Source of the DNA: Tetracentron sinense
Lineage: Eukaryota > Streptophyta > Magnoliopsida > Trochodendrales > Trochodendraceae
Length of the DNA stretch: 64,000 bases
NCBI GenBank assembly: GCA_015143295.1
Contig: CM026559.1
Location: forward strand, 22,830,826-22,894,825
Direction: 5' to 3'
Positions 11,384-55,122 of the stretch are shown here, in pieces; position 1 is the first letter of the stretch; every line of letters begins with the position of its first letter. Under the pieces are notes generated by a model. The model had not been told where the DNA came from and did not search any database. It was given only the letters and a program-made list of their open reading frames with translations. The position numbers and the translations under genes were made by a program.

Positions 11384-11971
11384 TTTAGAACCCCAAATTT
11401 CACATGTACTGTTCATGTGCATAGGGTAGTGAATAGTGCCATGAATAGTATCTACGGCTGAATGCCTAAGGTATGGTCTTGAATCATTATCAACGAAAAT
11501 GAGGAATTGGTTTTCAAAACTTGTATGAACAATGTATGTTAAGGTGTATAAAGGCCTTAGGAACATTTTCATGGGTTATGGGTGTTGAGAATAAAAGGTG
11601 GAAAAGGTTTAGGTGGTAAAAAGAGGGAAGTCTCCACATCCCTCAAACTTGAGAGTAGTCTAGTTTTCTCACTCCTTATCAGAATTAAGTGATTCTTAAA
11701 CCATTAGAACCATATTGGAATCCTCTTCAAGGCTCATGTGTAATATTTTTCCATATTTTGAGTCTAAGCTAAGCCAAAAGTGGGTTTTCCGACGTTTTTT
11801 CAGCTGAAATTGCAGACCAGTCCACTTGTAGGCCCATTTGGACCATTTAAAACTCAGAATTGGGAGTTTCATAAAACATGAAAGTTGTTCTCCCTCAAAA
11901 TATGAGTCCAACGCAAGTTGAATCGTCAAAATACAATAAGTGAGTTAAAAGTTATGGTCAAAATACCAAAT

Positions 11972-12121
11972 AGGAGTGCGATCTATCACAAATAAGGTGT
12001 GATCGATCGCAAAATAGTACGATCGATCGCAAATTTCTGTGATCGATCGTATTCAGGCGAGTTTTTTTGATTTCCTTCGGGTCCAAGTGCGATAGATCAC
12101 ACCAAAGGTGCGATCGATCGA
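11972..12121 (+). repeat. Palindromic GATCGATC cluster in Gyp1 5' LTR
   Basis: Six sites built on GTGCGATCGATCGC or a near variant, spaced roughly 10-30 bases apart. The 3' LTR copy (20455-20582) has fewer perfect sites: one unit present here (near 12000-12030) is missing there, and the 3' copy has a short extra segment before it. Other gypsy LTRs carry comparable clusters with different words. Confidence 0.8.
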
Positions 12122-13265
12122 ACTCGTGCCCAGTTTGCTCTTAAACCGAGTTTTTTGGGGATTTTGGGGGAACCTAAACCTAGAGAGGGATTGAGAGGGA
12201 GAAAGGGAAGGAAGATTGTGGATTTTCAACAGGATCTTTGTGGAGATCAAGTGGAGGCAATATCAATGTGGTTCTTCCACACCTTGCAAGGACTCCTCCA
12301 TCTTCAAGTGGCGTTCTTCCTCAAGCAAGGATATTTCCAAAACAAGGGTTTCTTCAAGATCTAGCTTTGATCTCAAAGGTTAGTACACCCGACTAACTAT
12401 CTTAATAATAACTTAGATTTTCTCTCTTAAAATGTTGATTTTCATCTTGTATCGTCCATTTTTCTTGGAAATATGCTATTTTCCCTAAATATAAACAAGA
12501 TAAATTAGAATGGTGGGATGTATGAAGGGATGAGGATTGAGGCGATTGAATGCCGTGTTGTGGTGATGAATGTGTGTTGAAAAAAAACAGTGGATGGGCA
12601 TTTCAAGCATAATGAACACACCTATGTGATTTGATGAAATGTATGCACAAAAAAAAAGGAAATGGAATGACTATGAATGTTGCACGCCATGTGTTTGATA
12701 AAACACCTAAACAAGAATGAAATGGATTTAATGAGGAAAAATTGAAAGTAAGCTCTATGTAAATTTCCCAAAAATGATGAATTGATCAAAGGCTCTATAT
12801 GTTATCTAATTTCCCGCATGATCCTATTGAGAATTGAAATGCTACACCTTATGCTTTATGTTGCACGTCAAGTGCTTGATGAAATGCATGAATGGGAATT
12901 AAATGGATTTAATGAGGATTATGAAAGCTTAAATTGTGTAGTGTTTTCTAAATGGTATTTCTTAAAATCAATTGCTTCACATGTTTGTTTAAATTACCAT
13001 ATGATTATGGAAAAAATGGAAATGCTATATGTCACCTTTTAATCATTTATGTCGTCATAAGTACCACGAATTAGAACACACACACACATCTATGCATGAA
13101 TTAAGGTTTTTAAGGGTATATGTATATATGTGCGAAAACAAATAAGAACAAGCTATGTGATTCAAGTAAATAATTATGAATATCAAGGGTAGGGCATATC
13201 CCTAGGATATGTCATACCTGGCTCACAAGAAAACATGTCAAGCAAGAATCAAGAAACATGGAAGG

Positions 13266-13632
13266 GTGTTAGTGTACTAAGACCAGGTAGGAGCACTAAC
13301 ATCTGTTCCCCAACAAACATGAAAGAATACTAGTGTACTAAGACCAAGTACGGGCATTAGTATCTGTTTCCAAGACATGAATAATATGAAAGTATGCTAG
13401 TGTACTAAGACCAGGTATGGGCACTAGTGTATGTTTCCAAGACGAGCATGAAAGGGTGTTAATGTACTAAGACCAGGTACGGGCATTAACACCTGTTTCC
13501 AACAAGTATGAGAGGATACTAGTATACTAAGACCAGTTACGGGTACTAGTATCTGTCTCCAAGCAAGAATAAGGAGATATGGAAGGGTGATAATGTACTA
13601 AGACCAGGTACGGGCATTATCATCTGTTCCCA
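13266..13632 (+). repeat. Array of six hairpin units with constant loop and variable stems (Gyp1 5' LTR)
   Basis: Six units of about 58-65 bases. Each has a loop close to TACTAAGACCAGGTACGGG flanked by two arms that pair with each other. The arm pairs differ from unit to unit: GTGTTAGTG/CACTAACAT, ATACTAGTG/CATTAGTAT, TATGCTAGTG/CACTAGTGTA, GGTGTTAATG/CATTAACACC, GATACTAGTA/TACTAGTATC, GGTGATAATG/CATTATCATC. Counting G.U wobbles, all six form 9-10 base pairs. The stems change together while the loop stays fixed, the pattern expected of a conserved RNA (or cruciform) structure. Confidence 0.85.
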
Positions 13633-13974
13633 AGCAAGGATAACAAGAACCTAGTATGTCTATCCATTTCATAGTTCGGGTACTAGCTAAACAAGAAGAA
13701 AACAAGGCATGTGTGATTCCCACGATACAAGAACAAGACAAGAATAAGTTATAAATACGGAAAACAAGTTTTGAAAACCACGAAAAGTATATTCAAGAAC
13801 AAGTCATGACTTTGAATACGAGTGAAAATGCATGAGTTAAAATATGATGGTCATGATTGACTTTACATTGTTATTTCGTTTTAGCTTTCATACTCTGATT
13901 ATGTATCCTTTGATGAACTGTATCATGTATGATATATTAATGTTATTACTATTGTTAGCTAGTAGCTTGTACTC

Positions 13975-13995
13975 GCTGAGTATTCCATGCTCAGC
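13975..13995 (+). other. GCTGAG/CTCAGC hairpin, Gyp1 5' LTR
   Basis: GCTGAG, a 9-base loop TATTCCATG, then CTCAGC, followed by a second short CCG/CGG pair ending in CGGCAGGT. The same 21 bases occur in the Gyp3 LTRs, the minus-strand solo LTR and the Gyp1 3' LTR. Gyp4 has a variant that keeps pairing. Confidence 0.75.
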
Positions 13996-15109
13996 CGTAC
14001 TTTTATGTCGGCAGGTACACCATACGCTTGTCGAGGCAGCTCAGGGAGAGCAGGAGATTGCTCTAGTTGTCACCCAGCTATTAGGGGTTAGATATTTGGC
14101 CTTACAGTTGTGGAGAGAGAGAGAGACATGTATTTTTGGCTCTTATGTCTGGGAATGGTTGTATCACTTCAGTTGGAATTCAAGTTAAGGAGTTCATGTA
14201 CATATTTTTAATTTCTATTTAGTTATTGTAACCAATTGCACTTGGAATATAGTTAAGTCATGAAAAGAAATTTTTAGGTCCACTATTTAGCTTGCCTTGT
14301 ATACTCTTGCAGGATGGTTTGTGTCGCGACCCAAAACCCACCCTAGGAGTTAGAGTGAACTTTGGACGACTAATCATGGCTTACATGACTTGCTTGACAA
14401 ACCAGCCTGCAAAAACCCATAGAGCATATACAATAGAGGATGACAGCGGAAACATAACTATAAAACACAGCGGAAGTCTAACAACCTCTAAGTATATACA
14501 CATGGTCCAAGTTTAATACAAAGAAATCAAAACAAAGAAAGTACGGACATGCCACCAAAATACATGAATATAATCACTCAGGCTCACCCACAGCCAATCC
14601 ACTCAGAATCTAACACCGCCTACTGATAACCCTCTACGGGAGGTTCCTCCAAAGGCTCCTCGACATACTCCTCTTCCACCCATGGACCAGGAGCACAAAC
14701 ATCAAATGGAGCAGCAGCTCCCTCAGAACCTGCCGACATAAGAAGTACGGCTGAGCATGGAATACTCAGCGGGTACCAAATACTAACCAATAGTCATAGC
14801 ATAAAAATGGCAATACATAAATCAGGAGCAATTCATATATGTTAGACGGAAACAATTCATATCATACAAGGAAGTAAAGCAATTTATAATCATGCTTGTA
14901 TTTCGTAGAAAGCCGATAAAACCTCTTGAAAACATCGTGCACTTGACTTGGCTTGAAATATCTTTTCGTACTTGAAAGCTTGTCGTGTTTGTCTTACTTG
15001 ATCTTGTCGAGTGTGTCGTACGTGTCATGTCATGCATGTCATGCGTGCTTGCTTGTGATCATGTAACTTGTGAGATACACTTGTGAGATATCCTTGTGAG
15101 ATGCGCTTG

Positions 15110-15262
15110 AGAGATGCCTTGAGAGGGAAGGGAGACTCTTCTTTATGCAATGCACTTGCGAGGGAAGGGAGACCCTTCTTCATGATATGTATGTACTTGC
15201 GAGGTAAGGGAGGCCCTTCTTCATGATATGCACTTGTGAGTGAGGGGAGACCCCTCGTGGAA
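15110..15262 (-). repeat. Four-unit hairpin array in the minus-strand solo LTR
   Basis: Four units of roughly 35-45 bases, each with a short perfect or near-perfect hairpin around a 3-base loop. On the plus strand: GAAGGG-AGA-CTCTTC, GAAGGG-AGA-CCCTTC, AAGGG-AGG-CCCTT, and GAGGGG-AGA-CCCCTC. In the last unit both arms have changed together. The array's place within the LTR is comparable to those of Gyp1, Gyp3 and Gyp4. Confidence 0.7.
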
Positions 15263-16185
15263 TGTTGGTTCTTGTTTTCTTGTGAAAAGCGAGGTAAAAC
15301 ATATCGTAGGATATGTCCCACCTCTAACCATGTTCTTGAAAACCTCGATAAATCATGTCATGCATGCCGTGCTCGTGGGAACCGTGTACATACTTGCATT
15401 TAAATTTCAATATGACATTTGGGTAATTTCACAACACATATAACATCAATGATTGAGCAATGTAATATTCATATCATTTAGGGAAAGCAAGAAAACACAC
15501 TATCATAGGCCCTAGCAATATTCATAATTTATTAGGCATGCTTTTCCTAATTTACAACTCATTTTATTCACCTTGGCATTTCATCAAACATGGTGTGTTC
15601 ATTATTCATTATTCATTTAAACCTAAATCATGCTTTTCTAGGTGAGTTTACTCACATCATAAAGGTGTGTTTATTATGGATACAATGCCCTCCCCATTTT
15701 AATCATCACAACACGACCCTTGGCATCCAATCGCCCATTCCATCTCCATTCACCATTCACAACCATCCATCTCATAGCACATGTGTAAATGAAAGAAAAT
15801 CAAAAGAAATAAAGGGAAAAGAGGAACTATAACTAGGAGGGTAGTAAGAAGTACCGACCTTGAAGAAATGAGGAAGAAACCCCTTCCAAAAACGACCATG
15901 AGGTGCTGCCCTAGCTTGGGGAACGCTCTCCACGAGTGCTTGAGCCGTGATCTTGGAGAAAAACCGGACTTGAAGTGATCTAGGGTCTCAAAACCCCTTT
16001 GATTCTTCTCCAAAAGCAAAACCCTAGCTTAGGAAACCCTTTCTCCTCTCTTCTAATCCCCCAAATCCTCTAAGTGTTGAGAATGAGCCCTAAAGGCTCG
16101 GGTTAAACTCTTAAGGTAAGGGTGAACCGACCAAAAGACTATAATACCCTTACTGAAATTTCTGCAAAAACACGAGTGCCGAACA

Positions 16186-16275
16186 CGTTGTGCTGTGAAT
16201 AGTGCCAAACACGTTGTGCTGTGAATAGTGCCGAACACGTTGTGCTGTGAATAGTGCCGAACACGTTGTCACGTT
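16186..16275. repeat. 26-bp tandem repeat in solo LTR
   Basis: Three full copies and part of a fourth of a 26-bp unit containing AACACGTTGTGCTGTG. They lie in the U3 part of the solo LTR. The next 150 bases continue with ACAACGT and ACGTTGT words in both orientations, a different palindromic vocabulary from Gyp3. Confidence 0.8.
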
Positions 16276-16499
16276 GTGTTGTGCATAGGGCTGAGCTCGT
16301 TGTCCGTTGTCTTATATACAACGTGCCCGTCGTGAGCTGTACAACGTACACGTTGTTTGCTGTACAACGTACCCATTGTCTGTTGTACAACGGATGCACA
16401 ACGTATACGTTATCAGAGCTAGAGCTACGTTATCAGAGTACGTTGTCTATGCGTTGTCTGTGCCTTATCAGAGCACGTTGTCAGAGCACGTTATCAGAG

Positions 16500-16583
16500 C
16501 TACGTCCTTAGTGCCCTCCGAGCCACGTCCTTAGTGCCTTCCGAGCTACGTCCTTAGTGCCTTCCGTGCTACGTCCTTAGTGC
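16500..16583. repeat. 25-bp tandem repeat in solo LTR
   Basis: Four copies of a unit containing CTACGTCCTTAGTGCC with small variations, next to the ACGTTGT-rich segment. Confidence 0.75.
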
Positions 16584-16881
16584 ATATGCCCGGTGATCGA
16601 TTGCCTGCAGGTCCAGACTGTTTTGGCCATATCTTTTGACTCGTTCGTCCGATTTTGACGATTCAACTTGCGTTGGGTTCGTACTTCGAAAAGGAACATT
16701 TCTGATCTTTTGGAATTTCCAATTTCTTCCTTATTTATTAATTATACCTCTTTAAAGGCAAAATGGCAACGAAAGTGTCATGCATTAAATGTGAAAAGGT
16801 CCGGGGCTCTACAGTTTGAAGGGTAAGTCACATCGCCAAAGTATCCTAACTCCTAGGGGGTATTTTGGGGCATTACAGAAG

Positions 16882-16893
16882 TGGTATCAGAGC
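16882..16893 (+). other. Gyp1 primer-binding site
   Basis: TGGTATCAGAGC, four bases after the 5' LTR end (GAAG between). Gyp3 has the same spacing and sequence. Confidence 0.9.
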
Positions 16894-18317
16894 TTAGGCA
16901 TTAGATCTCTATGGTCGTTTAGAGTTCGATACCATGATAAATACAAGGCATTAGGTTTAAGAAAAGAGTTGTATTCCAAGTGAAAACTAATCACTTAGTT
17001 TTTGTACATAACAGGTTGATTCCAACCGAAGTTAGTGTCCATTTACGCTAGAAAAGCCCATAAATTTTATATACTTATACTATGATGTGTTGTATTGTTA
17101 CGTGTTATTATATGCTATATATTGTGTGCTTACTATAGGTTATATGCTAATTGAAAACCTATGCCTTATGAACGAATTCCGAATTAGAATCATGAGTTAA
17201 AGGATATTCAGACTAGAGTCTAGCCTAGGTGTTAGTTAACAAGGGGATGGTAGGTCCCTTGCCATACATAGTGTTATTAGAACTAGGTAAGAATTGTTTC
17301 CCAAGAGAGGCTATAGGATGCTTTTAGGTCTTACAAGTCTAGTGTAATTTGAGTCGTGGTGAAAATAGGGATACAAGTTTTGATATATGTACTGTTATAC
17401 ATACTCGGTGTAATTTAAATTGTTAAAACTATACTTAATGTGTCTTATATCACGAATAAGCATAAGTTGCACACCACGATACCCCACGACTAGTAGGAAC
17501 ATATACGGATATCAAATGATTTTTAACCAACTCTGGGATGTTTGATGCACGCTTCTAGGTACAGATGCGCATTATTTGCAACACGTCCTATACCCAGTGC
17601 TCAATCCCAAAGGATTGGGCAAGCACATGGATGTCTGATCTATGTTTCTAGATACAGATGCGCGTTCATTCTGCAGCACGATCTAGACCCGATGCCTAGT
17701 TCAAAATAATAAAGAAATTACAAACTCCAAAGGGTAGCATGCACTTCATACATAGCATAATCATCATGCACCTCATGAACATCATACATATCATGCACTC
17801 TCATACATAGCATGCACTCCATGCATGGCATAAGCATCATGCATCGCATGAGCATCATATATATCACTCACATCATAGATTTTCATACATGACACGCATT
17901 TCATACATGGTATAAACATCACACACATATCATAAGCATCATATGCATATCCTGCATGCTTCATGTAGACCTTAGAAACATCATACATGTCACCAAGATT
18001 AAGAGGATTACACCTAAATAACTCAAATAAATGAACTAGTTATTAGTCCTAATCTTAAACTGGTTAATGTCCTAAGTAGGAAATCAGTTAATACCTTCAC
18101 CGAACGGAAGAACTTAGCTTCGCTAGGAAATTTTTCTTGTATGTTAATATTATATTATTGTATGCCTCAATTTTTCTTGTATGTTAATATTATATTATTG
18201 TATGCCTCGATGTATTATTATGTATGTATAAACATGAAATGATCGTTTAAATTGGGGACGAGATAAGTTGGGTTCCAAACTAGGCTCATGCTCTGCTATT
18301 GTTCTCAGGATTCAATC
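16894..18317 (+). other. Gyp1 untranslated leader
   Basis: About 1.4 kb with no credible coding frame, much longer than the 345-base leader of Gyp3. It holds a diverged direct duplication of about 70 bases (17530-17610 and 17627-17700), a low-complexity stretch rich in CATCATACAT and CATGCACT (about 17735-17990), and a 44-bp tandem duplication at 18151-18238. Confidence 0.7.
18151..18238 (+). repeat. 44-bp tandem duplication in Gyp1 leader
   Basis: Two adjacent, almost identical copies of an AT-rich segment containing TTTTTCTTGTATGTTAATAT and ending ATGCCTC, 80 bases before gag. Confidence 0.8.
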
Positions 18318-19522
18318 ATGAGATGTGGCAATCGGAGCTGTGGATGCCACACTAGGAGAGGTGGAGCATCTCCTCCTCCATCGGGGGATGAGCAGCTGGA
18401 TCTGACCCAAGTCTTGGGATCCATTGCAGAGACAATAGCAGTGCTTGCAGCTAGGCAGCCCTCTACCCATACTCCTACTGCGACACTTGTACCTACTCGT
18501 GCACATCATGCCATGGGAATTGAAGCATTTCGGAGGATGAGGCCCCCGGTATTTTATGGGGGCATTGATCCAATGGTTGCCGAAGCATGGATCAGGCAAC
18601 TAGAGAAGCTATATTCAGTCTTAATGCCTTCAGAGGCAAAGAAAGTTGCATGGGCCGCCTTTGTGATGGAAGGTGAGGCCGATCACTAGTGGAGATCTGC
18701 CATCAGAATGAGGGACTTGACTCGAGCGGGTCAAGAATGGACTTGGGAAGAGTTCCTAGATATCTTCTACAAGAAATACTTCCCAATAGGAGTTAGAGAA
18801 AAGAAAGAACTGGAGTTCATTACCTTGGAGCAGGGGAACATGATAGTGGCAGAATATGAAGCCAAGTTCTCCGAATTGTCAAGGTTTGCCCCATATCTGA
18901 TAGCCACAGAGGCAATGAAGGCCAGGAAATTCGAGAGGGGATTGTAGGCTTACATCAAAGATAGAGTCTCCATGTTCAGGCATGAAACCTACGCCGAAGT
19001 TGTGGATAAAGCCCAGTTGGCAGGATCGAATGTTGAGAAATTCTACAAGAGGAGAGAACTATTGAGAGGCCAGTCCAATGGCTCAACACAGCCGGAGAGG
19101 AGGGCCAAGATGACCCCATACCAGTCCCCTGGACCTACATAGGTGCAGAGCCATTCCCTTGCACCTCAGGCCCCTCGCCCTGCTACTACGCAAGTTACTC
19201 GATAGGTGCCACCAACATCTTCTACATCTACATTTGAATTTTGCAGTTACTGTAAGAGGAAACACATGACTGGGGATTGCCGAGCTCGTACAGGAGCATG
19301 TTACCATTGCGGTGACACGGGACATCGGATTAGAGATTGTCCAAGCCGTCGGCCACGTGCTCAAACCCAGGGAAATAGACTCCCAAATCGACTGCCCATG
19401 CAACAGGAGTCTTTTCAGGCTCCGAGGCCCCAGTAGCCCATACCACCTCCACATCAGGCTAATGAGGGCCAAGTTTTGCTATCTTAGGGCAAGGTGCTCA
19501 GGCCCCTAATAATGTTGCATGA
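18318..19522 (+). pseudogene. Gyp1 gag (capsid-nucleocapsid), several amber stops
   Basis: Retrotransposon Gag related to that of Gyp3. The start is the ATG at 18318, in the same context (TTCTCAGGA upstream) as the Gyp3 start. Capsid blocks: VLGSIAETIAVLAARQP, AEAWIRQLEKLYSVLMPSEA, EEFLDIFYKKYFPIGVREKK, EYEAKFSELSRFAPYL. Two Cys-rich fingers follow: CSYCKRKHMTGDC, then the zinc knuckle CYHCGDTGHRIRDC near 19297-19338. The frame holds from 18318 to about 19470 and is interrupted only by TAG codons (18687, 18945, 19140, 19203, 19434). A 1-bp loss near 19474 precedes the natural end at TGA 19520-19522. No protease follows. Gag alone could package its own RNA only with help from another element's pol. 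Confidence 0.9.
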
Positions 19523-19829
19523 ATACCGAAAGATAGAAATTTTGTTTTGAAACTGATGATGTAATGTTGTGTTCAGTGTATTGCCTATGTGTATAAACAT
19601 ATTATATTATGTTATGGAAGTTTTCTTACTTTTCGTGGGTGTTAGTAACAAAAAAACCCAAGTGCTTTTCCAACAAGCAAGCGCCTAGTCTCGGGTTGAT
19701 TGTTGATGAATTAGTATGTCTTTTAGTGTAACTAGGTGATTAAGTTCAAGGTTAAGGGCGGGAAAGGTGTTTCCGCTTGATTTCGTACTGTCCTAATTTC
19801 GAGGATGAAATTTCTATAAGGGGGGAGGA
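19523..19829 (+). other. Gyp1 3' untranslated spacer and polypurine tract
   Basis: About 300 noncoding bases between the gag stop and the 3' LTR. The end (19798-19829) contains TTTCGAGGATGAAATTTCTA then AAGGGGGGAGGA, closely matching the Gyp3 spacer before its 3' LTR. The A/G run at 19818-19829 is the plus-strand primer. Confidence 0.85.
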
Positions 19830-20454
19830 TGTAGAACCCCGAATTTCACATGCACTGTTCATGTGAATAGCGTAGTGAATAGTGTCATGAAGAGTATCTA
19901 CGGCTGAATGCCTAAGGTATGGTCTTGAATCATTCTCAACGAAAATGAGGAATTAGTTTTCAAAACTTGTATGAACAATGTATGTTAAGGTGTATAAAGG
20001 CCTTAGGAAAATTTTCATGGGTTATGGGTGTTGAGAATAAAAGGTGGAAAAGGTTCTAGGTGGTAAAAAGAGGGAAGTCTCTACATCCCTCAAACTTGAG
20101 AGTAGTCTAGTTTTCTCACCCCTTATCTAAATCAAGTGATTCTTTAACCATTAGAACCGTATTGAAATCCTCTTCGAGGTTCATGTTTAATCTTGTTCCA
20201 TATTTTGAGTCTAAGCTAAGTCAAAAGTGGGTTTTCCGATATTTTTTATGCTGAAATTGCAGACTAGTCCATTTGTGGGCCCATTTGGACCATTTAAAAC
20301 TCAGAAGTAGGAGTTTCATAAAACATAAAAGTTGGTCTCATTCGAAAGACGAGTCCAATGCAAGTTGAATCATCAAAATCCGATAAGCGAGTCAAAAGTA
20401 ATGGTCAAAATACCAAAGCGGGATCAAATCTATCGGAATCAGGAAAAGAGGAGT

Positions 20455-20582
20455 GCGATCTATCGCAAATAAGGTGCGATCGATCCCAAATTTCTACGAT
20501 TGATCGCATTCAGGTGAGTTTTTTTGATTTTCTTCGGGTCTAAGTGCGATAGATCGCAACAAAGGTGCGATCGATCGCACTC
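20455..20582 (+). repeat. Palindromic GATCGATC cluster in Gyp1 3' LTR
   Basis: Counterpart of 11972-12121 with fewer perfect sites (for example GTGCGATCGATCGCAC near 20568-20583). It shows that site number changes between the two LTRs of one element. Confidence 0.75.
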
Positions 20583-21718
20583 GTGCCCAGTTTGCTCTTA
20601 AAACCCGAGTTTTTTGGGGATTTTGGGGGAACCTAAACCTAGAGAGGTATTGAGAGGGAGAAAGGGAAGGAAGATTGGGGATTTTTAAGAGGAGTTTTGT
20701 GGAGATCAAGTGGAGCCAAATCAACGTGGGTCTTCCTCACCTAGCAAGGACTCCTCCATCTTCAAGTGGCGTTCTTCCTCAAGCAAGGATATTTCCAAAA
20801 CAAGGGTTTCTTCAAGATCTAGCTTTGATCTCAAGGTTAGTACACCCTACTAACTATCTTAGCAATAACTTAGATTTTCTCTCTCAAAATGTTGATTTTG
20901 ATCTTGTATCTTCCCTTTTTCTTGGAAATATGATATTTTCCCTAAATATGAACAAGATAAATTAGAATGGTGGGATGTATGAAGGGATGAGGATTGAGGC
21001 GATTGGATGCCGTGTTGTGGTGATGAATGTGTGTTGAAAAAAATGGTGGATGGGCATTTCAAGCATAATGAACACACCTATGTGATTTGATGAAATGTAT
21101 GCACAAAAAAAAGAAGAAATGGAATGACTATGAATGTTGCACGCCATGTGTTTGATAAAACACCTAAACAAGAATGAAATAGATTTAATGAGGAAAAATT
21201 GAAAGTGAGCTCGATGTAATGTTCCCAAAAATGATGAATTGATCAAAGGCTCTATATGTTATCTAATTTCCCGCATGATCCTATTGAGAATTGAAATGCT
21301 ACACCTTATGCTTTATGTTGCACGTCAAGTGCTTGATGAAATGCATGAATCAGAATTAAATGGATTTAATGAGGATTATGAAAGCTTAAATTGTGTAGTG
21401 TTTTCTAAATGGTATTTTTTAAAATCAATTGCTCCACATGTTTGTTTAAATTACCACATGATTATGGAAAGAATGGAAATGCTATATGTCACCTTTTTAT
21501 CATTTATGTCGTCATAAGTACCAAGAATTGGAACACACACACACATGTATGCATGAATTAAGGTTTTTAAGGGTATATGTATATATGTGCGAAAACAAAT
21601 AAGAACAAGCTATGTGATTCCAGTAAATAAGTATGAATACCAAGGGTAGGGCATATCCCTAGGATATGTCGTACTTAGCTCACAAGAAAACATGTCAAGC
21701 AAGAATCAAGAAACATGG

Positions 21719-22069
21719 AAGGGTGTTAGTGTACTAAGACCAGGTACGGGCACTAACATCTGTTCCCCAACAAGCATGAAAGGATACTAGTATACTAAGA
21801 CCAGGTACGGGCACTAGTATCTGTTTCCAAGAAATGAATAATATGAAAGTATGCTAGTCTACTAAGACCAGGTACGGGCACTAGTGTATGTTTCCAAGAC
21901 AAGCATGAAAGGGTGTTAATGTACTAAGACCAGGTAAGGGCATTAACACCTATTTCCAACAAGTATGAGAGGATACTAGTATACTAAGACCAGGTACGGG
22001 TACTAGTATCTGTCTCTAAGCAAGAATAAGGAATCATGGAAGGGTGATAATGTACTAAGACCAGGTACG
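21719..22069 (+). repeat. Hairpin array in Gyp1 3' LTR, last unit split by Cop4
   Basis: The same six units as in the 5' LTR. Unit 2 has changed its left arm to GATACTAGTA (ATACTAGTG in the 5' copy) and the right arm now reads CACTAGTATC, so pairing is kept except for one end mismatch. Cop4 entered the loop of unit six: the duplicated bases GTACG are part of the constant loop, and the right arm CATTATCATC resumes at 31898. Confidence 0.85.
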
Positions 22070-22777
22070 TGTTGGACATATATGCCCTCGAAAGCCAATA
22101 AGAGACTTTTTTATGTTGATTAGATAAGCATTATATTCACACAACAAACTATAAAGGGTATTTATATTAATTACTGTCTCATATGATGAAGACATAAAGT
22201 TCTATAGGTAACATTGTAGGAAAATCATGCAAAGGTTGCGAGGAGATATGATTTTCCGGTTCCTTGTAAACCTAATATTGTTCGAAGCCTCTAGAGTACT
22301 GGTTGGGCGACGTACTTCATCGTGGGTTGCACATGTGTAGTTCTATGAGATAGTGTGATGAATCTCATTCACAGAGAGTGATGACTCTTGACTAACATGT
22401 GAGTATATGTAGCAAGTACATAATACTAAACAGGGTCACTAGTGGATACCCTATGGAATACACTGTCAGATTGTATTAGGGTTATCCATTTGACAAATTG
22501 TCCTTAGACCTGAGAGGTTAACATCTTCTCAGACATCTGTCTATATGGCTTTGATGTGCCAATCGGCAATGTCCAATACACAAGACTAACTCCGGGTACG
22601 TTGGGTCATGTACACAATGTTTGGAGAAGTGTGTAAACACTCAATAAGGAATCCACAACTCCTTAATTGGAGATAATGATATCAAGGTGATACTTGTTGA
22701 ACTGAACTATTAAATTCAATACTGGTGCTTTTCGGTAAAATGGTTTTTATCGAAGTTGATATTTTTAATATGGAAAA

Positions 22778-22805
22778 GTATATATATATATATATATATA
22801 TATAT
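22778..22805. repeat. (TA)n microsatellite in Cop4 5' LTR
   Basis: About 14 TA units. The 3' LTR has a similar run near 30393-30421. Confidence 0.9.
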
Positions 22806-23754
22806 GTCAGTTCTTTTCTAATGTTTCTTCAAAATTGTTTTGGAGGTTCAGTTCAATGAAAAAGTAATCATGAGAAAGAGTTCTATTCATAAGCTAGGGA
22901 CTAAGACAGTGGAATTGTTCAAATCCCGGAAGCTTACAAGTGATATCGGAATGTGGAAGGATTTATTTGTAAATATATTGTGAGATGGTACTTACAAGCA
23001 ATTCTCTAATTTCTGGAGGTTAATCACATTGTGTTAATGGACATTAATTGTGATTGGTGGAAGTCCAGGGACTTAGATAACATTCTATGATCCCAATGGA
23101 GTTTTAGGAAATGTGTTTCCTAGTAACAATGCTTCAACCAAAAAGGTGAAGTACTTGGTCCCACAACCGGAAATAGGAGATCCCTTTAGATCCCACACAC
23201 AATGACCTTCTTAAAGTATTTAATTTAATTTATAATTAAATTAATTAATTTCTCTAAGTAATCACTATATGGTATAGTGAAGCTCTAAAAGGTGGAATCA
23301 CATTAGATGTGAAAAACCAAATGGGTAGGACCCGTTGGGAATTATTATAAAAGAATAATTCAAGTGACCAATAGGGGTTTGGAACCCTAGGGGCGTGTGG
23401 AGTGAGACCCAGCTAGGGTGGGACGCCCACTTCAAGGAGGAAATAATAATTGTTATTATTTATTTAATTAGTTTCTAATAACTAATATCCTTATTGGATA
23501 AGGTTAGTTAGTTAGTTAGAGTTAGTTACTAATTAAAGATTCTTTGTTGGACAAGGAGTCTATTAGTTTCTTGCTAATCAAGGAATCCTAATTAGATTAG
23601 GATAAGGATAAGATTAGTTGGACACTAATGGATGAGATTAGTTTCTATTTTGATTATTCCTAATTAATTATGGAGAAACCGAATAGGAAACTAATTGAGG
23701 AATCCTTATTGGATAAGGATGAGGAAACTTTGGTTGCAAGCAACCAATGAAGCC

Positions 23755-23762
23755 TATAAAAG
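23755..23762 (+). promoter_or_regulatory. TATA box, Cop4 5' LTR
   Basis: TATAAAAG, repeated at 31371-31378 in the 3' LTR. The Cop5 LTR has a similar box at the matching place (61359-61366). Confidence 0.65.
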
Positions 23763-24274
23763 GGATGGACATCCAAGGCTTTGGGCATTCTTGAATTTTC
23801 CAGAATTTCTAGATTTGGAAACTTCTCCCCTCTCCTCAAACCTCACGCCCTCTCCTCTCTCTCCTTGAGGTGTACGGTCACACCCATCTCTCTCTTCTTT
23901 TGTCTTCTTGATTGGATCTTGAGGAAAAGAAAGAATTCATCTTGTTCATCAAGAAAGGTTCTTGATCAATAAAGATTAGATCTTTTATTCAAGATTCCTA
24001 GAGCTGAAAATTTGGAAGGGCCATTAGCTTCCATTAGAGAAAGCTTTAAAGGAAAAAGAAGGTTCGTGTGAATCGACAGGAGACTTGACACTTGTGAAGT
24101 TTTGCGAGTACTATTCTAACGTGGATTTGACTTAACAATTTCAAAGTCCCAAAGGTGAATGTTATTCCTACCTTCATTGAATAAAATCAATTAGAATCTT
24201 AGTCAGATCTTGGGATTCGATGTATGCCCCCCCGAGAACTGTGTTTCTAAAATTAAAAAGAGGCATACTTTCAT

Positions 24275-24286
24275 TGGTATCAGAGC
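24275..24286 (+). other. Cop4 primer-binding site
   Basis: TGGTATCAGAGC, one base after the 5' LTR end. Confidence 0.9.
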
Positions 24287-27200
24287 CTTGGCTATGCTTC
24301 TCTTTGATTTTTGAGTTTAATCAAGATTTGTATCAAGATTGCCTCCCTTATGAATTTTGGTAGCCCTAATGAATCAATCTTCTAGATTCTTGATTATTGG
24401 ATAATCATTATTAGGCTTAAGGGATCCCCCTCTAGTTATTGAGGGAGTAATCAAGCCCTTAGAAATTAGTGTGATACTAATTTCAGTTTTGGATGATTTC
24501 AAAACCTCTCTTAGTTCTATTAGGGATAGGTATATAGAGATATAAATTTGGTTAAAGCCCTTTAAGGATTTAGAGATCCTTTTAGTATATTAAATTAAAT
24601 TGTTTAATTTATTTTAGAGAGCCCAGAGCAAGTTTTCCCTTTGATATATACCGCTTAGATACCCATTGATATTTTGGCTAGAATATATAGATGAGATTTT
24701 ATTTATTAAATGTTAATTAATAAATCTCATGGTGTTAGACACCCTTCCTTAAGCATTCTTGGAGATTAAAGCTTATTTCGATTAAAATTGATTCATGGAT
24801 TTTCGGATTTGTATTTGATTAGAAGAATCGATACAGTTTCGGTATTTTGGTCATAACTTTGTGACCGTAAGTCTGATTTAGGTCTGTCAGTGTATCGTTT
24901 CGAAGCCGTCGAAAAGATCTACCACTTTCGTGAAGAATGTTTTTTCAGAATCAATCGTTTTGAGGGTCAAAACTTGAGTCGAAAATCTAAAACGGGAAAA
25001 GGAGTTTTCTAAATTAATTTTCCAAGAGGCTTTCAAATTTTTCCTAAATTCCATTATTTGATTTGAGAGCATGGGATGCTATTAAATCGTTTAATGGGCT
25101 CTCAATTAATTAAATAGTTTAATTATTTGATTCGAGAGCACGGGCTGAGATTTAATTAAATTGTTTAATTATCTGCTTCGAGTCCACGGGCTATCATTTA
25201 ATTAAATGTTAATTCTGATATCTTTTATGGTTCCCTAAAAAGTTTATGAGAATAATACCATAATTATTGTAGTTGATTTGGATCAATTACATGTGCTCAA
25301 AAATTTTCGGCTACATAGTATTTATAAGTTTTTTATTTGATTAATAGTTAATCTAGTAATCACATAAATGACATTGGTTGAGATACAGGGTTTTATCTCA
25401 AGTGAATTTTAATTGATAGAGATCAATTATTTTATGGACATTTAATACTAGTGTTTAGGGTATTATTTTATTTAATTGTTAAATCAAATAATCCCTAAAG
25501 CAGTTGGCCATTATGGAAAATTTTGAATTCACCTATTATTGACTTTGAATCAATATAAAGTGATATTAAAAATTAGCAATTTGCTGATTTTTATTTTGGT
25601 CTATTAATAGTTATTAGATCAAAATAATATAGAAGGGATTAGGACCCTATCCTAGCCGAATTTAATATGGTGTTTTCTATTTATTTATCAATTGAGGAAT
25701 GTGAGGATGAATTTTAGGGTTAGATTAAATCTCAGAGAAATTGTTTCTCTTAATGATTTTCAAGCATTAAAGGAAAATTGTTTTCTTTTAATGATGATCT
25801 AAAAACCCTACGAATTCATTCAAGACATGCTTGCTTTCTTTGCTCTAGGGTTTTTCTATTAAATGTTAATAGAGGCCTTAACCATATGGGAAAGAGTTTC
25901 CCTAAGGTTAACAAAACCCTTGTTGAGGTTATGGACTTTCTAAGTAATTTGTCATGCCATGTTATTATTCATAGTTGATGAATTGTTAATATATATTCTT
26001 GTTGAATGGTGAATGGGTTCCATAATCATGTCTTCTTCTTCTCTTTCAATTCTCTTCTCTTTCTTCTTATGAGTTATACTCCCCTTGAGCACCCTATTTT
26101 GGGTGGTTTCTCAAGGTTTCTTATTTTGAATATGATGTAATCTTAGTATTAGGAGTTGCTGGTTTTTCTCTATAAAGAAATCATATTGATGATCGAAGAT
26201 GATGGTGATCGCATGGAGAATAAATCTTGGAAGGCGTTCTACAAGAGTAGTTGTAGGATTTCTAAGATAGCATGATCATGTGGACCCATTGTGCGGCTAT
26301 ATTATGTATTTCATGTGATGATTTGTTATAACTTTTAGTTGCTTTGAAAAATCTATAACCCTTGTGATAATGTGATTATCGTTTTTGTGCAAATTTTGGA
26401 TAATTGGATCAAACCCCACAATATGTGTTTTGTTCAAACATAAAAAGTTTGTGTTTAAATAAAACACATTATTATAACCCTTTTGGACGTGATGCATCTA
26501 GTCCATGTTGAAATTTTTACATGGAATATGTTACTTACATGATTATGAGATAATTGTGTCTTAATTGACATAGATGTAAGCTAACAATATTCACGATTAT
26601 GGGAAGTACTTGAGTAACACTTATAGACCCTAGTAGAGGTCTTAAAGAGTTGTTTAAAGACTCCCATAATTTCTTTTGAACTTAGGGTTGGTGAACCCTA
26701 ATGTGCTAAAAATAATTCGTAGAGAATTAAAGGATAATATAGTCCATTTTGACTTATGAGCTTTAGTGATGTACATGGACACTTTATAATTGTTATTCTG
26801 GGCCCATGGTGCTTTGTATGACCAATGGTCCATCATATGGATGAATGAACCATCTAAAGCCCACTGATGTTAAAAAATAACCTTTGTACCCTTGGATTAG
26901 ATCCATTAAGATTTCTAGGGCTAGTGAGAGTTCATTGGAATTAGTTTGATCTAATTAAAACGAAATTTGATTTATTATCATGTGATGATATTTGTATATT
27001 ATTCTATGCATGTGATGCAATGATAAATATTGTGAATACTTTTTATATATGCATTAGATGTATAATTTGTTCATAATATTCTGTTTTCCCTCAAGAAAAA
27101 TATTAAGTGAATTAAATGGGCTAATCTATCCTACGGGATAATGTTGCCCTATGACCTTCCATTATCAATAAGACTAGGAATTAATTAGCCTGAGTTTTGT

Positions 27201-27839
27201 CTCTCTGACAGAAATCGGACATAATTCAGTTTAAATTAAACTCCTAGTGTTTTATTTCTATAGTAGATACGAATATGTATGGCCTGATAGGGAGTGTCAA
27301 CTAGCATGGGGGCATATTCCTACTTGATCATATGACAACCGAGAATAATGAGTTTCACTTAACCAAGGACCATTACGGCTGACAGGTGACAGTCATATTA
27401 TCCTTGGAGGTCACAAGAAAATTGGGAATCACTGATTAACATAAGGAGTTATGCATGAGATGTTCAGTGATGGATAGTTACTATCCACCTTGTAGTGCAT
27501 GTGTGGTACTATCCTAGCATGAAAGATTGCATGTGTATTATAAGGCACCCAATGCTCATCAGAAATATGAAGTAACATATTTCCTAATTTTATAGATTGA
27601 GGGGTCTATAAAATTTGACTGAATGATGAGCAATATCATCAAAGATCGAAAGCCCTGATCTAATGATATTATTATGTGTGAAATATTATGATGTATGTTT
27701 TATTGTCATGTCATTCTATAACTACCTTACCAAGACTTTAATGAGAATCTCTTGACCAATTCAAAGTGTTTGGAATGGAAAAATGAATCTCAAGTTTGTG
27801 CTTACTATCTAAAGAATTGCCCAAGTTCTCACTACTGAT
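24287..27839 (+). other. Cop4 long noncoding leader
   Basis: About 3.5 kb, AT-rich, with no coding signal I can support. Near 25065-25205 an eroded direct repeat of about 65 bases recurs (TTTAATTA followed by CGAGAGCACGGGCT or CGAGTCCACGGGCT). The rest shows no clear structure by eye. Confidence 0.6.
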
Positions 27840-28350
27840 GTTAAATCTCATATGAGATGTTTACAGAATACAATAGGGCTGCTAGGCAGCTTACTATATA
27901 AAAGGACAAGTGGAGACCAAGTTGACTAGGGAAACCCAGTCACAAAGAATATGATAGAGATCATTGGATTCATAAATCCCAATTCTTGGTGCTGAGATAA
28001 ATTGAGATAAATTTATGGGATTAGAGGATATGATCTTCGACAAACTCCCGCAATCCTTTAATATGGTTATGTTGAACAAGTAGGAAATCAGATTGTCTGA
28101 AATCCCACATGTTGCATATGGCTAAGAACCTTTGAAGAGTTCAATGCTACTTGCAAAGATGTTCAAAAGAATTGGATTTTCTAAATCCCGAGCATTTATG
28201 CAAAGGAAAGAAATCCAAGATTTTTCATTGGAAAGGTATTCTAGTAGTATGGACAAAAGCTCTTCTGAGAAGAAAGGAAAGTATAAGGATTGTGCGTCAT
28301 AGTGAAGCAATTGGTCATTGGATACAGGACAAACCTTTGGAAGGATTATC
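27840..28350 (+). pseudogene. Cop4 gag remnant
   Basis: Weak copia Gag similarity, scattered over frames and stops. Around 27950-28075 there is a segment resembling the mid-Gag region with MIEIIGFI. At 28285-28330 the translation includes VRHSEAIGHWIQD, which looks like a zinc knuckle that has lost its cysteines. This is inference from pattern only. Confidence 0.4.
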
Positions 28351-29499
28351 CAGCTTGTATACTCATCAAGTGCAACTTAATTGTTGGAACCTCTAGCTCC
28401 TAATGCTTGGTATGATCTTGCATAAGTGCAATAGTAGCATGTTTGTTAAGGAGAATGAGAAATTTAAGTAGATAAAACTTCTACTTGAGAATAGGACAAA
28501 AGTTGGATGATCGTAGTTATATGAATCTTCCATTAAGAGGTAGCTAACTTTATTTCACCTTCTTTGAAAAGTTCAAGGAATTCCGCATTGAAATAAAGAA
28601 ACAGCTAGGTAAGTCTTCCATGATTGAGAAGAGTACCTCTTAATAGAAATTTCATAATTTACTCTCATTACATCTTGTCTCAGATAATTTCCAGAACAAA
28701 CCATAGCATGATGGTGTTGTTAAATCGAATTTTATTGGATATGATTTGATAGAAGATGAGCTTCGGATTCGCATTAGAGACATTTAGTCTCTATTCCTGG
28801 ATAACAAAAGATATTTGTAAACAGGAACATAAGTTTCGTAGTAGAGACACTGAATCTAGAATTGTTCTAGAAGCGGAAGCCCAATAGACCAATAACTATG
28901 AGAATTGATAGAGATCAACTCTCTACTCTCACTATACCTAAATAGTACACTAGAACCCACAGGTCCCAGAATCTGTAGTTGGACTAACTTTTATTCTGAT
29001 GAAGTAATCAAACTGTTTGATTTTCATCTAAGAATGAAAGTATCATTTGTGTACAAATTGGTTAGTGAGAGCATAATTACTTTCCTGGCTCTATGCAAAG
29101 ATAATATTCTTTTCATTGCGAATGAAGTACGAATATTATTCTTCTCTTAGATTTGATCTAGCAATTATGCAATGAATGACAACAACTTTGACATCATGTT
29201 TTCTTAGTCCTAAATGGTTTAGAGACAAAAGGAAAATGATATTGTTATTCTCCCAATAACAATGATGTTTTTGTGCAAGTAAGATTCCAAGAAAAGAGTT
29301 TCTACCTTTATGGAATGGAATCAGTTTCTCTTAGATATGTGATATATTGAGAAAGTATACTTGTACTAGACCGGATATTCATCACATGTTGATGTGATAA
29401 GATATTGATCAGATTAGTCCGGAGCATTGTACAATGGTAAAGCACAAGCAAGTTAACTTCAGAAAATGACTGTTGGACAGTATCATTTTAGTTTAGTCT

Positions 29500-29675
29500 T
29501 TTAAGACTATGGTTATTGATAATAAATTTGCAAGAGTTGCAAGTGTTATTGCATCACTACGATAGTTGTGGTAAAGCAGACATGACAGACCCATACATAT
29601 TAACTTATGTCTCAATTGGTGTTTGAGAAACATCACTGAGAAGATAGGCATTACATCTAATTAGCTTAGAGTGCA
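29500..29675 (+). pseudogene. Cop4 RNase H C-terminal remnant
   Basis: Eroded traces resembling the last 50 or so codons of a copia RNase H, ending just before the polypurine tract. The placement agrees with Cop5, where the RNase H stop is followed directly by the tract and LTR. Essentially all of protease, integrase and RT is missing between here and the gag remnant. Confidence 0.4.
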
Positions 29676-29685
29676 AGTGGAAGAT
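29672..29685 (+). other. Cop4 polypurine tract
   Basis: TGCAAGTGGAAGAT directly before the 3' LTR's TGTTGGAC. Compare GTGCAAGTGAGAGAT in Cop5. Confidence 0.7.
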
Positions 29686-32256: not shown

Positions 32257-32277
32257 GCTGAGTATTCCATGCTCAGC
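32257..32277 (+). other. GCTGAG/CTCAGC hairpin, Gyp1 3' LTR
   Basis: Identical to the copy at 13975-13995. The downstream CCG/CGG pair is also kept. Confidence 0.75.
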
Positions 32278-39630: not shown

Positions 39631-39781
39631 CATGGATGCTAGTTGCGACGGGCTATGAACGGCAACCAGGCATTCACATTCTGCATGGATGCTAGTGGCG
39701 ACGGGCTATGAACGGCAACTAGGCATACCTATCTGCATATAGGGTGCTAGTTGCGACGGACTATGAACGGCAACTAGGCAT
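39631..39781 (+). repeat. Hairpin minisatellite, three units (Gyp3 5' LTR)
   Basis: About 53-bp units: TGCTAGTTGC, loop GACGGGCTATGAACG, then GCAACTAGGCA. The arms pair over 10 bases with one bulge. The loop end shares CTATGA and ACGG with the Gyp4 loop, which suggests a common origin with the Gyp1/Gyp4 arrays. The 3' LTR has five units (47092-47343). Confidence 0.85.
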
Positions 39782-45677: not shown

Positions 45678-48060
45678 TGTAGAGCCCCGGACCTTTTCAC
45701 ATTTAATGCATGACACTTTCGTTGCCATTTTGCCTTTAAAGAGGTATAATTAATAAATAAGGAAGAAATTGGAAATTCCGAAACATTAGAAATGTTCATT
45801 TTCGAAGTACGAACCCAACGCAAGTTGAATCGTCGAAATCGGACGAACGAGTCAAAAGTTATGGCCAAAACAGTCGGGACCAGCAGAGCACCGATCGCTC
45901 GGTCCATGGAGCGATCGATCGGTCCAAAACCGATCGCTCGGAGGCTATCGACTGGTCGAGATTTTTGTATGGGGAAATTTTCCAGAGAGTGAAATTTTAA
46001 CCGATCGCTCGGTTATGAAACCGATCGATCGGTAGGCAACCGATCGATCGGTCATTAACACCGATCGCTTGGTACTCGCGTTTTTGCAGAAAATTTAGTA
46101 AGGGTGTTTTAGTCTTTTGGGCAGTTTACTCTTACCTTAAGAGTCTTGCCCGAGCCTTTAGGGCTTATTTACAATACTTAGAAGATTGAGAGCTAAGGAG
46201 AGGAGAAGAAGACGATCCCTAACCTAGGGTTTGATTTTTGGAGGTGAAATCAAAGGGTTGTGAACCCACACTCACCTCAAGTCCATTTTCTTCAAGATCT
46301 CGGCTCAAGCTCGTGTGGGGCACTCTCCTCAAGCTAGGGCAGCAACTCACGGTCGTTTTGGAAAGGGGGATTTCTTCCTCACTTGATCAAGGTCGGTACT
46401 TCTTACTACCCTCCTAGTTATAGCTTTCCTTTTTCCTTTGTTTCTCCTTGTTTTCCTTCACATATATATGTGTTATGAGATTGGTGGTATGAATGGTGAA
46501 TGGAGATGGATGTTGGCAAATGGATGCCGTGTGGATGATGTGATGAACGAATGGGAAAGGGCATTGTACTAATAATGACATACAAGTGTGATGTGAGCAT
46601 AACCCACCTAGAAAAGCATGATCTAGGTGCAAGTGAATAATGAACACACTCCATGTTTGATGAAATGCCAAGGTGAACAAAATAAATGATAAATTAAGGG
46701 AACCCACGCTTGATTGCTCTTGAAATTGTTAGGGTTCATGATAGTGTGTTTCCTACATTTCTTAAAATGCGTAGATTATTACTCACTTAAATTGCTATAT
46801 GCTATGCTTTGTGAATTACCCCAAATTGCAATATTTAATTCCAAATGCAAGTTATGCACACGATCTCACGAGCACACATGAAATGATGTGATTTACCGAT
46901 GTTTTAAGTATGGGACGTAGAGGTGGGGCATATCCTAAGATATGTCTCACTTCGCTTTCGACAAGGGCAAGACAATCATGCATTGCATAGGGAAAGGTCT
47001 CCCATCCCCTCGTATGACATGCATAGCATCGCATGACACGCATAGCATAGCATGGCATGACATGCATAGCATAGCATCACACATCACGCATGGATGCTAG
47101 TTGCGACGGGCTATGAACGGCAACTAGGCATTCACATTCTGCATGGATGCTAGTTGCGACGGGCTATGAACGGCAACTAGGCATTCACATTCCGCATGGA
47201 TGCTAGTTGCGACGGGCTATGAACGGCAACCAGGCATTCACATTCTGCATGGATGCTAGTGGCGACGGGCTATGAACGGCAACTAGGCATACCTATCTGC
47301 ATATAGGGTGCTAGTTGCGACGGACTATGAACGGCAACTAGGCATGTGAACATGTTTAAATTATGAAAATGCAAGCATGACAAGCATGACACGGTTAACA
47401 AGTTCCCAATCACGCAAGGGGTATTTCAAGTCAAGTCAAGTGCACGATGTTTTCAAGGGTTTTATCAGTCTTTCTGAATGCAAGCATGAATATAAATTGC
47501 TTTACTTCTTTGTATGATCTAAATTGTTCCTGTTCTATATATGCAACTTGCTTCCTACTTTATGTATGCTATCTGTATACTATGACTGTTGGTTAGTATT
47601 TAGTACCCGCTGAGTATTCCATGCTCAGCCGTACTTCTTATGTCGGCAGGTTCTGAGGGAGCTGCTGCTCCATTTGATGTTTGTGCTCCTGGTCCATGGG
47701 TGGAGGAGGAGTACGTCGAGGAGCCTTTTGAGGAACCTCCCGTAGAGGGTTATCAGTAGGTGGTGTTAGATTCTGAGTGGATTAGCTGTGGGTGAGCATG
47801 AGTGATTATATCCATGTATTTTGGCGGGCATGTCCACACTTTCTTTGTTTTGATTTCTTTGTATTAAAACTTGGACCATGTGTATATACTTAGAGGTTTG
47901 TTAGACTTCCGCCGTGTTTTATAGTGATGCTTCCGCTGTTATCCTCTATTGTATATGTTCTGTGGGTTTTGCAGGTTGGTTCGTCAAGCAAGTCCTGTAA
48001 GTCATGTTTAGGTCGTCCAAGATTCACTCTAACTCCTAGGGTGGGTTTTGGGTCGCGACA
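45678..48060 (+). mobile_element. Gyp3 3' LTR
   Basis: 2383 bp. It is 105 bp longer than the 5' LTR because the hairpin minisatellite has five units instead of three (106 bp), with a 1-bp deletion elsewhere. GATC cluster 45890-46077, minisatellite 47092-47343, GCTGAG hairpin 47609-47629. Confidence 0.95.
47092..47343 (+). repeat. Hairpin minisatellite, five units (Gyp3 3' LTR)
   Basis: The same 53-bp unit as at 39631-39781, two units more. The loop GACGGGCTATGAACG is unchanged in four units and GACGGACTATGAACG in the last. Confidence 0.9.
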
Positions 48061-53648: not shown

Positions 53649-54888
53649 TCCATGCTTGGGAGATCTTTTTGAGGGGTTTGAGGGGTCTTTTACCAACCCC
53701 TTAGCCTATTTAAGCACCCATTTTTGTGGGTAAGGGTTTACACAACCCTTAAAGAAGGTTTTGAGAGAAAATAGAGAGAATTTAGGGTTTGTGAAGGGGG
53801 TTTTGCTAAAGGTGGTTGTCAAACCTAAAATGAAGCTTGTTTCGCTTCTAGAAGTGCGATCTTCACTTCCTCAGTGCATTCTCAAGAGAATTAGATCAAG
53901 GGATTGATCTAGGAAAGGTATAACATTCTACTAACTACCTTGTTATGATTCATTCATGCTTGGTGCTGATTAAAGCATAGTTTTTGGTAGAAATTGAGGC
54001 TTATAGCCTTGTTAGTAAGCCTTGTTGCAGGATATTTGAGGAAACCAAGGCTTGTAGCCTTATATGTATATAAAAAGAAAGCTAAAAGAGAGGGGTTTTG
54101 ATAAGAGAGTGTGAATACGCTCTCCTACTTGGATTGTTAAACCTTCCTTATACTTAGTAAGATTAAAGGCTTGGGTTTTGATGCAAAGAGTGTACATACA
54201 CTCTACTAACTATCTTATATGATTCATTGCTACCTTGTAGGCTTAGATGCATGATTTTGGGTTGTATGTATATATTATTAGGTATATACTATTGACATGA
54301 ATGAAATGAAATAATAGGTATTGATGTATGTTTTTGAGAAAATTAAGGCATATAGCCTTACATGCATATACTATTGAAGAAATGAAGTGAATTTGGGAAT
54401 TTTACTATACATGATGATTTCCTTGCTTAACCTATTGATCACAAATGATGTATATCAGCACCATGATTTTATGATAGATTTTGTGTTAAGTATAAGTATC
54501 AAAAGGGTGGTTTAAACTAAAAGCAAGCTTATAATTATGATTTGACAAAATGGGCTAAGTAACCCATGTATATGCTATGATAACTAAATGAGTGAAATTT
54601 CATGATCTATTACAATGTTTTCAATACTCTCTACTATGATGCTCATAAGTACTCTATGCATATGACTAAATGTTTAAAAGCTTTCCATGATCTCTATGAT
54701 GCTCACATGCACTCGATGATGCTCACAAGCACTCTATGCACATGTATGACGTGTATAACCGAGATTTCTCATAAGAATAAGAAAGTAAAAGCTCATAAGA
54801 CTCACAAGAAAGGTTAATAAGAAAGAGAAAATAAAAGCTCATAAGACTCACAAGAAAATGTTCAAAAGTTTACAAGAATATGAGAGGA

Positions 54889-55122
54889 TACTGGTATACT
54901 ATAACCAGGTATGGATACTAGTATCTGTCTCCAAGTAAAATAAAGAATATGAAAGGATCTAGTGTACTATCACCAGGTACGGGCACTAGTATCTATTTCC
55001 AAGAATTAAGGAATGATGTTTTAGTGTACTATGACCAAGTACGGGCACTATCATCTGTTCCATAAAAGCAAGAGAGGATGTTAGTATACTATGACCAGGC
55101 ACGGGTACTAGCATCTGTCTCC
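54889..55122 (+). repeat. Hairpin array, four units (Gyp4 LTR)
   Basis: Loops close to TACTATGACCAGGTACGGG. Arms: GATACTGGTA/TACTAGTATC, GATCTAGTG/CACTAGTATC (one bulge), GATGTTTTAGTG/CACTATCATC (imperfect), GATGTTAGTA/TACTAGCATC. Units one and four pair over 10 bases with a G.U each; the other two are partly eroded. Confidence 0.8.

Follow-up and report, generated by a model that had tools for sequence, protein, structure and literature searches.

The LTRs of two elements, Gyp1 and Gyp4, in the 64,000-nucleotide stretch of DNA analysed here (the window) carry tandem arrays of small hairpins, termed type A, in which a 19-nt loop is nearly constant and the two sides of the stem change together. 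With a probability of about 0.6, we read this array as acting in cis within the genomic RNA, as a multivalent element that would most likely be bound by Gag or by an export factor. Because the loop stays near-constant while both sides of the stem co-change, the RNA fold itself is probably kept by selection. In retroelement replication, LTR segments that are inherited by daughter copies pass through sense genomic RNA, which is why the array would belong to that RNA whatever the start site of the transcript.

By self-comparison, the main part of the Gyp1 5' LTR (11386..14321, + strand) matches the two pieces of the 3' LTR (19832-22069 and 31890-32605) at 93-95%; its last ~64 bases (~16814-16877, +) lie beyond an inserted solo LTR. 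Six hairpin units occupy 13265..13303, 13326..13364, 13393..13431, 13455..13493, 13515..13553 and 13586..13624 (all +), with loops starting at 13275, 13336, 13403, 13465, 13525 and 13596, and each loop is flanked on either side by 10-base arms. The 3' LTR array (21722..22069, resuming at 31890, +) holds the same six units, namely units 1-5 and the start of unit 6, the sixth being broken at 22069/31890 by another LTR element. The first-pass annotation had described six units with a shared loop and complementary arms in Gyp1, and this was borne out in both LTRs. Three arm positions of unit 2 differ between the 5' and 3' LTR copies, unit 3 has two G.U pairs that are present in both LTRs, and in units 1-5 no loop difference is common to both LTRs. 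The Gyp4 array (54887..55115, +; loops at ~54897, 54965, 55027 and 55087) contains the four variant-loop units that had been proposed, here with a T-variant loop, although a deletion or internal loop interrupts two of the four stems. Across 87 stretches, type-A arrays had 2-13 units (median 6), and within their loop an internal TAC/GTA could pair. A known Rfam family for the array was rejected, as judged by gathering scores only (0 window matches at or above the curated gathering score), and three reverse-complement cores of the loop, with 1-3 mismatches allowed, found no antisense complement on the + strand of the window. The element nested in unit 6 of the Gyp1 3' LTR (22070-31889) has 2.2-kb LTRs that are 97.8% identical.

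Just after the end of the Gyp1 5' LTR, at ~16882, stands the PBS-like TGGTATCAGAGC, presumably for tRNA-Met. The 2.95-kb internal region (16880-19830) includes a gag-like coding region (18318..19499, +; tblastn with five Gyp3 ORF pieces, E <= 1e-3), and gag was the sole match to these five pieces. With two LTRs, gag and no pol match, Gyp1 therefore classes by its sequence as a TR-GAG-like element with LTRs of ~3 kb, for which pol would be needed in trans. Gag alone was also found in four of the five between-LTR stretches of other type-A elements (two Gyp4-like, two Gyp1-like), and the fifth, L239, had no match to the Gyp3 ORF pieces. Array-to-array spacing was 4.6-6.1 kb in seven type-A pairs and 8.5 kb in the window copy of Gyp1, inserted solo LTR included. 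The one TATA-like site near Gyp1, at 13751, was rejected as an indicator of the promoter: it is not family-wide, and among the other Gyp1-like copies that were checked, most read TGTAAATA or lack it. The TR-GAG elements of plants likewise have two LTRs around a gag-only internal part, and the passages that describe them in PMC9784723 mention no hairpin array such as that in the ~3-kb Gyp1 LTR.

The host genome (1.16 Gb, 1479 contigs) contains 7341 matches to the type-A loop with up to two mismatches (3694 and 3647 on the two strands), compared with 2 (1 + 1) for a reversed loop control. Because of this difference, and because arm pairing beats shuffles, a chance origin of the type-A loop and arm pairing is excluded. 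Our full sample, which is not random for the genome, comprises 557 units (8 of 565 dropped) from the window and 87 fetched loci; the first 60 loci were 51 of the 100 loop sites listed for contigs C1-C3 plus nine Gyp1-like, and the remainder were 20 more Gyp1-like and seven further loci. A 436-unit set (68 loci) was left after 14 of 450 units were dropped, six as window duplicates from L120 and eight for having more than four loop mismatches. Removal of 98 indel-bearing units from the 557 by a pairing-blind flank rule gave a gapless set of 459, and the covariation test and unit tree used 307 distinct sequences from the 339 gapless units of the 436-unit set. Scans of viral contigs that followed up the hairpin array returned no matches; at least 119 stretches in bacterial records from a genome-contig scan were judged to be chance and set aside.

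On average, 8.90 of the 10 stem positions were paired in the 436 units, against maxima of 8.135 in 1000 arm shuffles and 8.22 in shuffles within arrays, and only 1.5-5.1 positions paired when the partner was slid by 1-4 positions. The 183 distinct gapless arm haplotypes had 9.11 of 10 paired (2000 arm shuffles: mean 8.21, maximum 8.38). For single stem pairs of the 436 units, indel units included, Watson-Crick (WC) pairing reached 86.9% at p1 (54.4% expected from column make-up), 89.7% at p3 (66.4%), 72.5% at p6 (39.1%), 66.5% at p7 (42.1%) and 77.1% at p10 (59.7%), while p2, p4 and p8 had no such excess because they are nearly invariant.

Covariation was scored with an APC-corrected G test over 1540 column pairs. 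Stem partners p1, p10, p6, p3, p7 and p5 ranked 3, 6, 7, 9, 11 and 13, and p9 ranked 20; the two top-ranked column pairs were non-partners, and most other high ranks went to positions outside the stem (L13, R14, L14 and R15). In 60 simulations under a tree-based null, the largest G value averaged 155 with a highest of 267; three partner values (172.6, 165.6 and 162.5) exceeded that mean maximum and none exceeded the highest, so it is the pairs taken together, and no individual pair, that carry the claim. As a set, the type-A pairs covary beyond relatedness, as conserved structural RNAs do. On the unit tree, same-branch double changes numbered 13 at partner sites (6.9 expected), with none at p1, p3 or p6, and 40 off the diagonal (55.1 expected). 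The first-pass annotation had called for such a check over many copies and had set free drift of the arms in other copies, beforehand, as the result that would count against it; instead, the stems change on both sides, with six of ten partners within the top 13 of 1540, and free drift was not seen.

G.U pairs form in the sense RNA only, and in DNA G.T and A.C are equivalent. We therefore counted both among arm haplotypes, taking the two LTRs of one element once, such that haplotypes common to three or more elements should mostly predate insertion. The 26 gapless haplotypes of this kind held 240 WC, 18 G.U, 0 A.C and 2 other pairs. Haplotypes found in exactly two elements had 214 WC, 21 G.U, 8 A.C and 7 other pairs, and those found in one element had 1059, 116, 59 and 86, respectively. 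When indel units were kept, 25 haplotypes in at least three loci (68 loci) gave 220 WC, 13 G.U, 2 A.C and 15 other pairs; of the two A.C, one is real and sits at p1, and most of the "other" pairs are indel arms read without gaps. Linked in a minimum spanning network, the 26 gapless haplotypes gave 10 both-side WC-to-WC steps, 14 WC-to-GU, 0 WC-to-AC and 2 WC-to-other. Internal branches of the unit tree carried 24 WC-to-GU and 7 WC-to-AC changes, compared with 53 and 42 at the tips (Fisher p 0.036). Departures from common arm pairs were 54 G.U versus 22 A.C at one to two steps in loci other than the Gyp1-like, and 11 versus 7 at up to three steps in the Gyp1-like.

Eight LTR pairs, chosen by spacing, orientation and similarity, served as the post-insertion comparison, their differences being taken to have arisen after insertion (one gapped unit was excluded). 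Their arm differences were WC/G.U in 18 cases, WC/A.C in nine, WC/other in eight and between two non-WC states in three. As the post-insertion lean to G.U may be partly mutational, we set the G.U:A.C ratio of the shared haplotypes (18:0) against that of the LTR pairs (18:9), and the two differed (Fisher p 0.0067). A.C pairs arise after insertion, yet none occurs in a gapless haplotype that is common to three or more elements. Since such haplotypes have G.U but no A.C and A.C appears post-insertion, selection on the sense RNA is favoured over cruciforms in the DNA and over template-switch repair by itself. The whole Gyp1 array folded at -109.3 kcal/mol on the sense strand (z -2.59) and at -83.2 kcal/mol on the antisense strand (z +1.08), with not all six hairpins formed in its minimum free energy structure. 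The energy of single units was lower on the + strand in 392 of 427, as it also was for 333 of 427 shuffled units, with a smaller margin. Selection for a folded RNA or for DNA cruciforms had both been put forward at the outset, with packaging, dimerisation, translation control and Gag binding as candidate roles. The G.U/A.C asymmetry speaks against the cruciforms, and the folded RNA is supported for Gyp1 and Gyp4, with their both-side changes, G.U intermediates, lack of A.C in the gapless haplotypes common to three or more elements, and post-insertion decay, but not for Gyp3, whose stem is nearly invariant, or for the solo LTR, whose fold is unsupported.

The same eight LTR pairs differed at 39 of 920 arm positions (4.2%), 65 of 874 loop positions (7.4%) and 232 of 4573 positions outside (5.1%); with 7.4% in the loop versus 4.2% in the arms and 5.1% in the surroundings, the loop is not mutationally cold. 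The two commonest exact loops, both of which contain CAGGTA, were present in 74 and 101 gapless units, where they combined with 50 and 36 distinct arm pairs. This recurrence on many stems is partly ascertainment, because many loci were found by their loop. Gyp1-like arrays that were found by whole-array similarity (L121-L127 and L209-L217) nevertheless had six loop units each with at most five mismatches, L127 having one additional, spurious loop match. Where a hairpin is read through its loop, one would expect the loop to stay constant and the stems to be interchangeable.

At the corresponding place in its LTRs, the autonomous relative Gyp3 also bears hairpins in an array, and their loop is related to that of type A. 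Its LTRs span 38218-40497 and 45677-48061, of which 39622-40497 and 47186-48061 are 99.5% identical, and its ORF pieces encode gag, protease, RT, RNase H and integrase in that order (Pfam), which, together with the LTR pair and with PBS-like and PPT-like motifs recognized by eye, identifies it as Ty3/Gypsy. Among the 120 matches listed for the protease-RT piece, the named organisms were plants and one Corynebacterium record. No chromodomain match was listed for the integrase ORF up to E 5, a search that could miss a divergent one, and chromodomains are missing from some chromoviruses (PMC3601003). The array, termed type B, comprises three units with an 8-bp stem in the 5' LTR (39639..39777, +) and five in the 3' LTR (47097..47341, +), the unit numbers of the 5' and 3' LTRs being as first described; as the LTRs of one Gyp3 differ by two whole units, arrays change length quickly. 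The Gyp3 and Gyp4 loops have CTATGA then ACGG in common, and the motif CTATGA-N0-8-ACGG, picked post hoc, matched the window 11 times (0.31 expected), 10 of them inside arrays. With up to one mismatch, the Gyp3 loop had 3374 + 3732 genome matches versus 2 in the control.

The co-changing stems that had also been proposed for Gyp3 were rejected. In 103 type-B units (5 of 108 matches dropped) from the window and 20 fetched loci, all on contig C1, the 8-bp stem was almost invariant, and both sides had changed to another Watson-Crick pair in 1 of 824 cells. Six arm types occurred in at least three loci; one was fully paired, two had G.U, one had A.C (common to four loci) and two had another mismatch. 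In the window, one A.C and one G.A mismatch occur in the stems of both LTRs alike. The Gyp3 units form a hairpin array without covariation support or a clear G.U preference. Elsewhere in its 5' LTR, at 38540-38615, four tandem ACCGA/TCGGT palindromes have a fixed stem and a varying centre, the opposite of type A, and the repeat finder listed a similar array in the 3' LTR (45999-46052).

Processes other than RNA selection could also leave complementary arms. Template-switch (quasipalindrome) repair, whether in the replication of DNA or in reverse transcription, would keep them so; it has been described for RNA stems and can yield multi-base compensatory changes (PMC8794818), of which the adjacent p6-p7 double change that separates two common haplotypes might be a case. 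We think this unlikely as the explanation, since such repair should remove G.T and A.C alike, yet the gapless haplotypes common to three or more elements have 18 G.U and 0 A.C, single-step WC-to-GU edges are common (14), and the recurring loop would be left unexplained. At the DNA level, the array could be an LTR enhancer whose loops bind a transcription factor and whose arms extrude as cruciforms or are bound as inverted half-sites. This would suit an array that may lie 5' of the promoter, and tandem repeats that might help to regulate transcription have been described in U3 (PMC3601003); the equivalence of G.T and A.C in DNA conflicts with the predominance of G.U in widely shared haplotypes, and the arms are too variable for fixed half-sites, making this reading distinctly improbable. 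Arrays do expand and contract, as the three versus five units of the Gyp3 LTRs imply, which would also suit a minisatellite drifting neutrally from one palindrome. For type A such drift is contradicted by the arm shuffles, the both-side changes and the shared-haplotype counts, and we rejected it as next to incredible there, while it may apply to the solo-LTR array.

An export or 3'-end-processing element of the CTE/RTE/MTE kind, read by a host factor instead of Gag, would be an RNA element too. The CAGGTA of the two commonest type-A loops, which might also pair with the 5' end of U1 snRNA, is consistent with this, but the type-B loop lacks it. Structured export elements are known from other LTR elements (PMC12786077), although a search of open-licence papers for transport elements in plants listed no plant example. 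We regard this reading as rather doubtful and rank a host RNA-export or 3'-end factor second, after Gag and packaging, as candidate reader.

Under the preferred reading of a genomic-RNA element, selection would act on the sense-strand RNA fold of the type-A units; a putative protein would read the loop, which the stem would merely present, and several units per array would give avidity. The reader would most likely be the element's own Gag, with selective packaging of the RNA of a gag-only, trans-mobilised element. More tentatively still, gag-only elements may display 2-13 constant-loop hairpins as a multivalent recognition array through which their RNA is selected by their own Gag. If true, loop and reader may have co-evolved between this parasite and its helper, the autonomous relative, which has the related motif CTATGA...ACGG on a fixed stem.

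Retroviral and Ty1 packaging hairpins differ from one another and lie near the 5' end of the RNA, and the RTE and MTE elements are murine. Here, by contrast with the retroviral and Ty1 cases, one hairpin, known from sequence alone, recurs in tandem within the LTR, its loop constant and its stems variable. The retroviral and Ty1 systems likewise have stem-loops of genomic RNA, there tied to Gag, packaging or dimerisation (PMC5454406, PMC8096270). The RTE and MTE are, as is predicted for the type-A array, cis-acting structured RNAs in LTR elements, and the passage that covers them reports no tandem arrays of a single small hairpin, unlike type A (PMC12786077). Tandem repeats in non-coding parts of plant LTR retrotransposons are described for Retand (PMC11963269) and for the Tnt1 U3 (PMC3601003), as in type A; the Retand arrays stand between pol and the 3' LTR, whereas type-A arrays are inside the LTR, and a term search of the main text of PMC11963269 found neither "hairpin" nor "secondary structure". 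More broadly, the relevant passages in open-licence PubMed Central literature describe LTR stem-loops as well as tandem repeats, the latter in U3 or close to the 3' LTR, and no covarying hairpin tandem array. Little appears to be known of how an LTR retrotransposon in plants selects its own RNA: a 2025 review covers the life cycle of these elements, and a term search of its main text found neither "packaging signal" nor "stem-loop". A compact, repeated, covariation-supported motif with thousands of genomic examples offers a defined bait for the reading protein, and the type-A array separates RNA-level selection in the mobile life of the element from post-insertion decay.

The solo LTR on the minus strand carries a tandem array (15110..15262, -) with short stems at the equivalent LTR position. 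The repeat itself is as first described, but the hairpin fold assigned to it was rejected, as its folding does not surpass that of shuffled sequences (z -0.94), 29 of 200 of which did equally well. At 16175-16583 (-), the solo LTR has more tandem arrays, and the GTTGT...ACAAC arms of some of their units could form hairpins.

A conserved palindrome follows the arrays of Gyp1, Gyp3, Gyp4 and the solo LTR, ~265-350 bases downstream of their ends; for Gyp1 it lies at 13975..13995 (+), with equivalents at 32257, 40045, 47609 and 55437 (+) and at 14750 (-). Every LTR of the window that bears an array has this palindrome, whose 9-bp arms enclose a centre of 3 bases and, in Gyp1 and Gyp3, include a T.G wobble; it pairs in most of the copies listed by a both-strand scan, in which the same places are counted twice. 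Upstream of the arrays, a CATATCC..GGATATG palindrome occurs at 13190-13210, with shorter equivalents in Gyp3 and the solo LTR; it is present in most Gyp1-like and few Gyp4-like copies.
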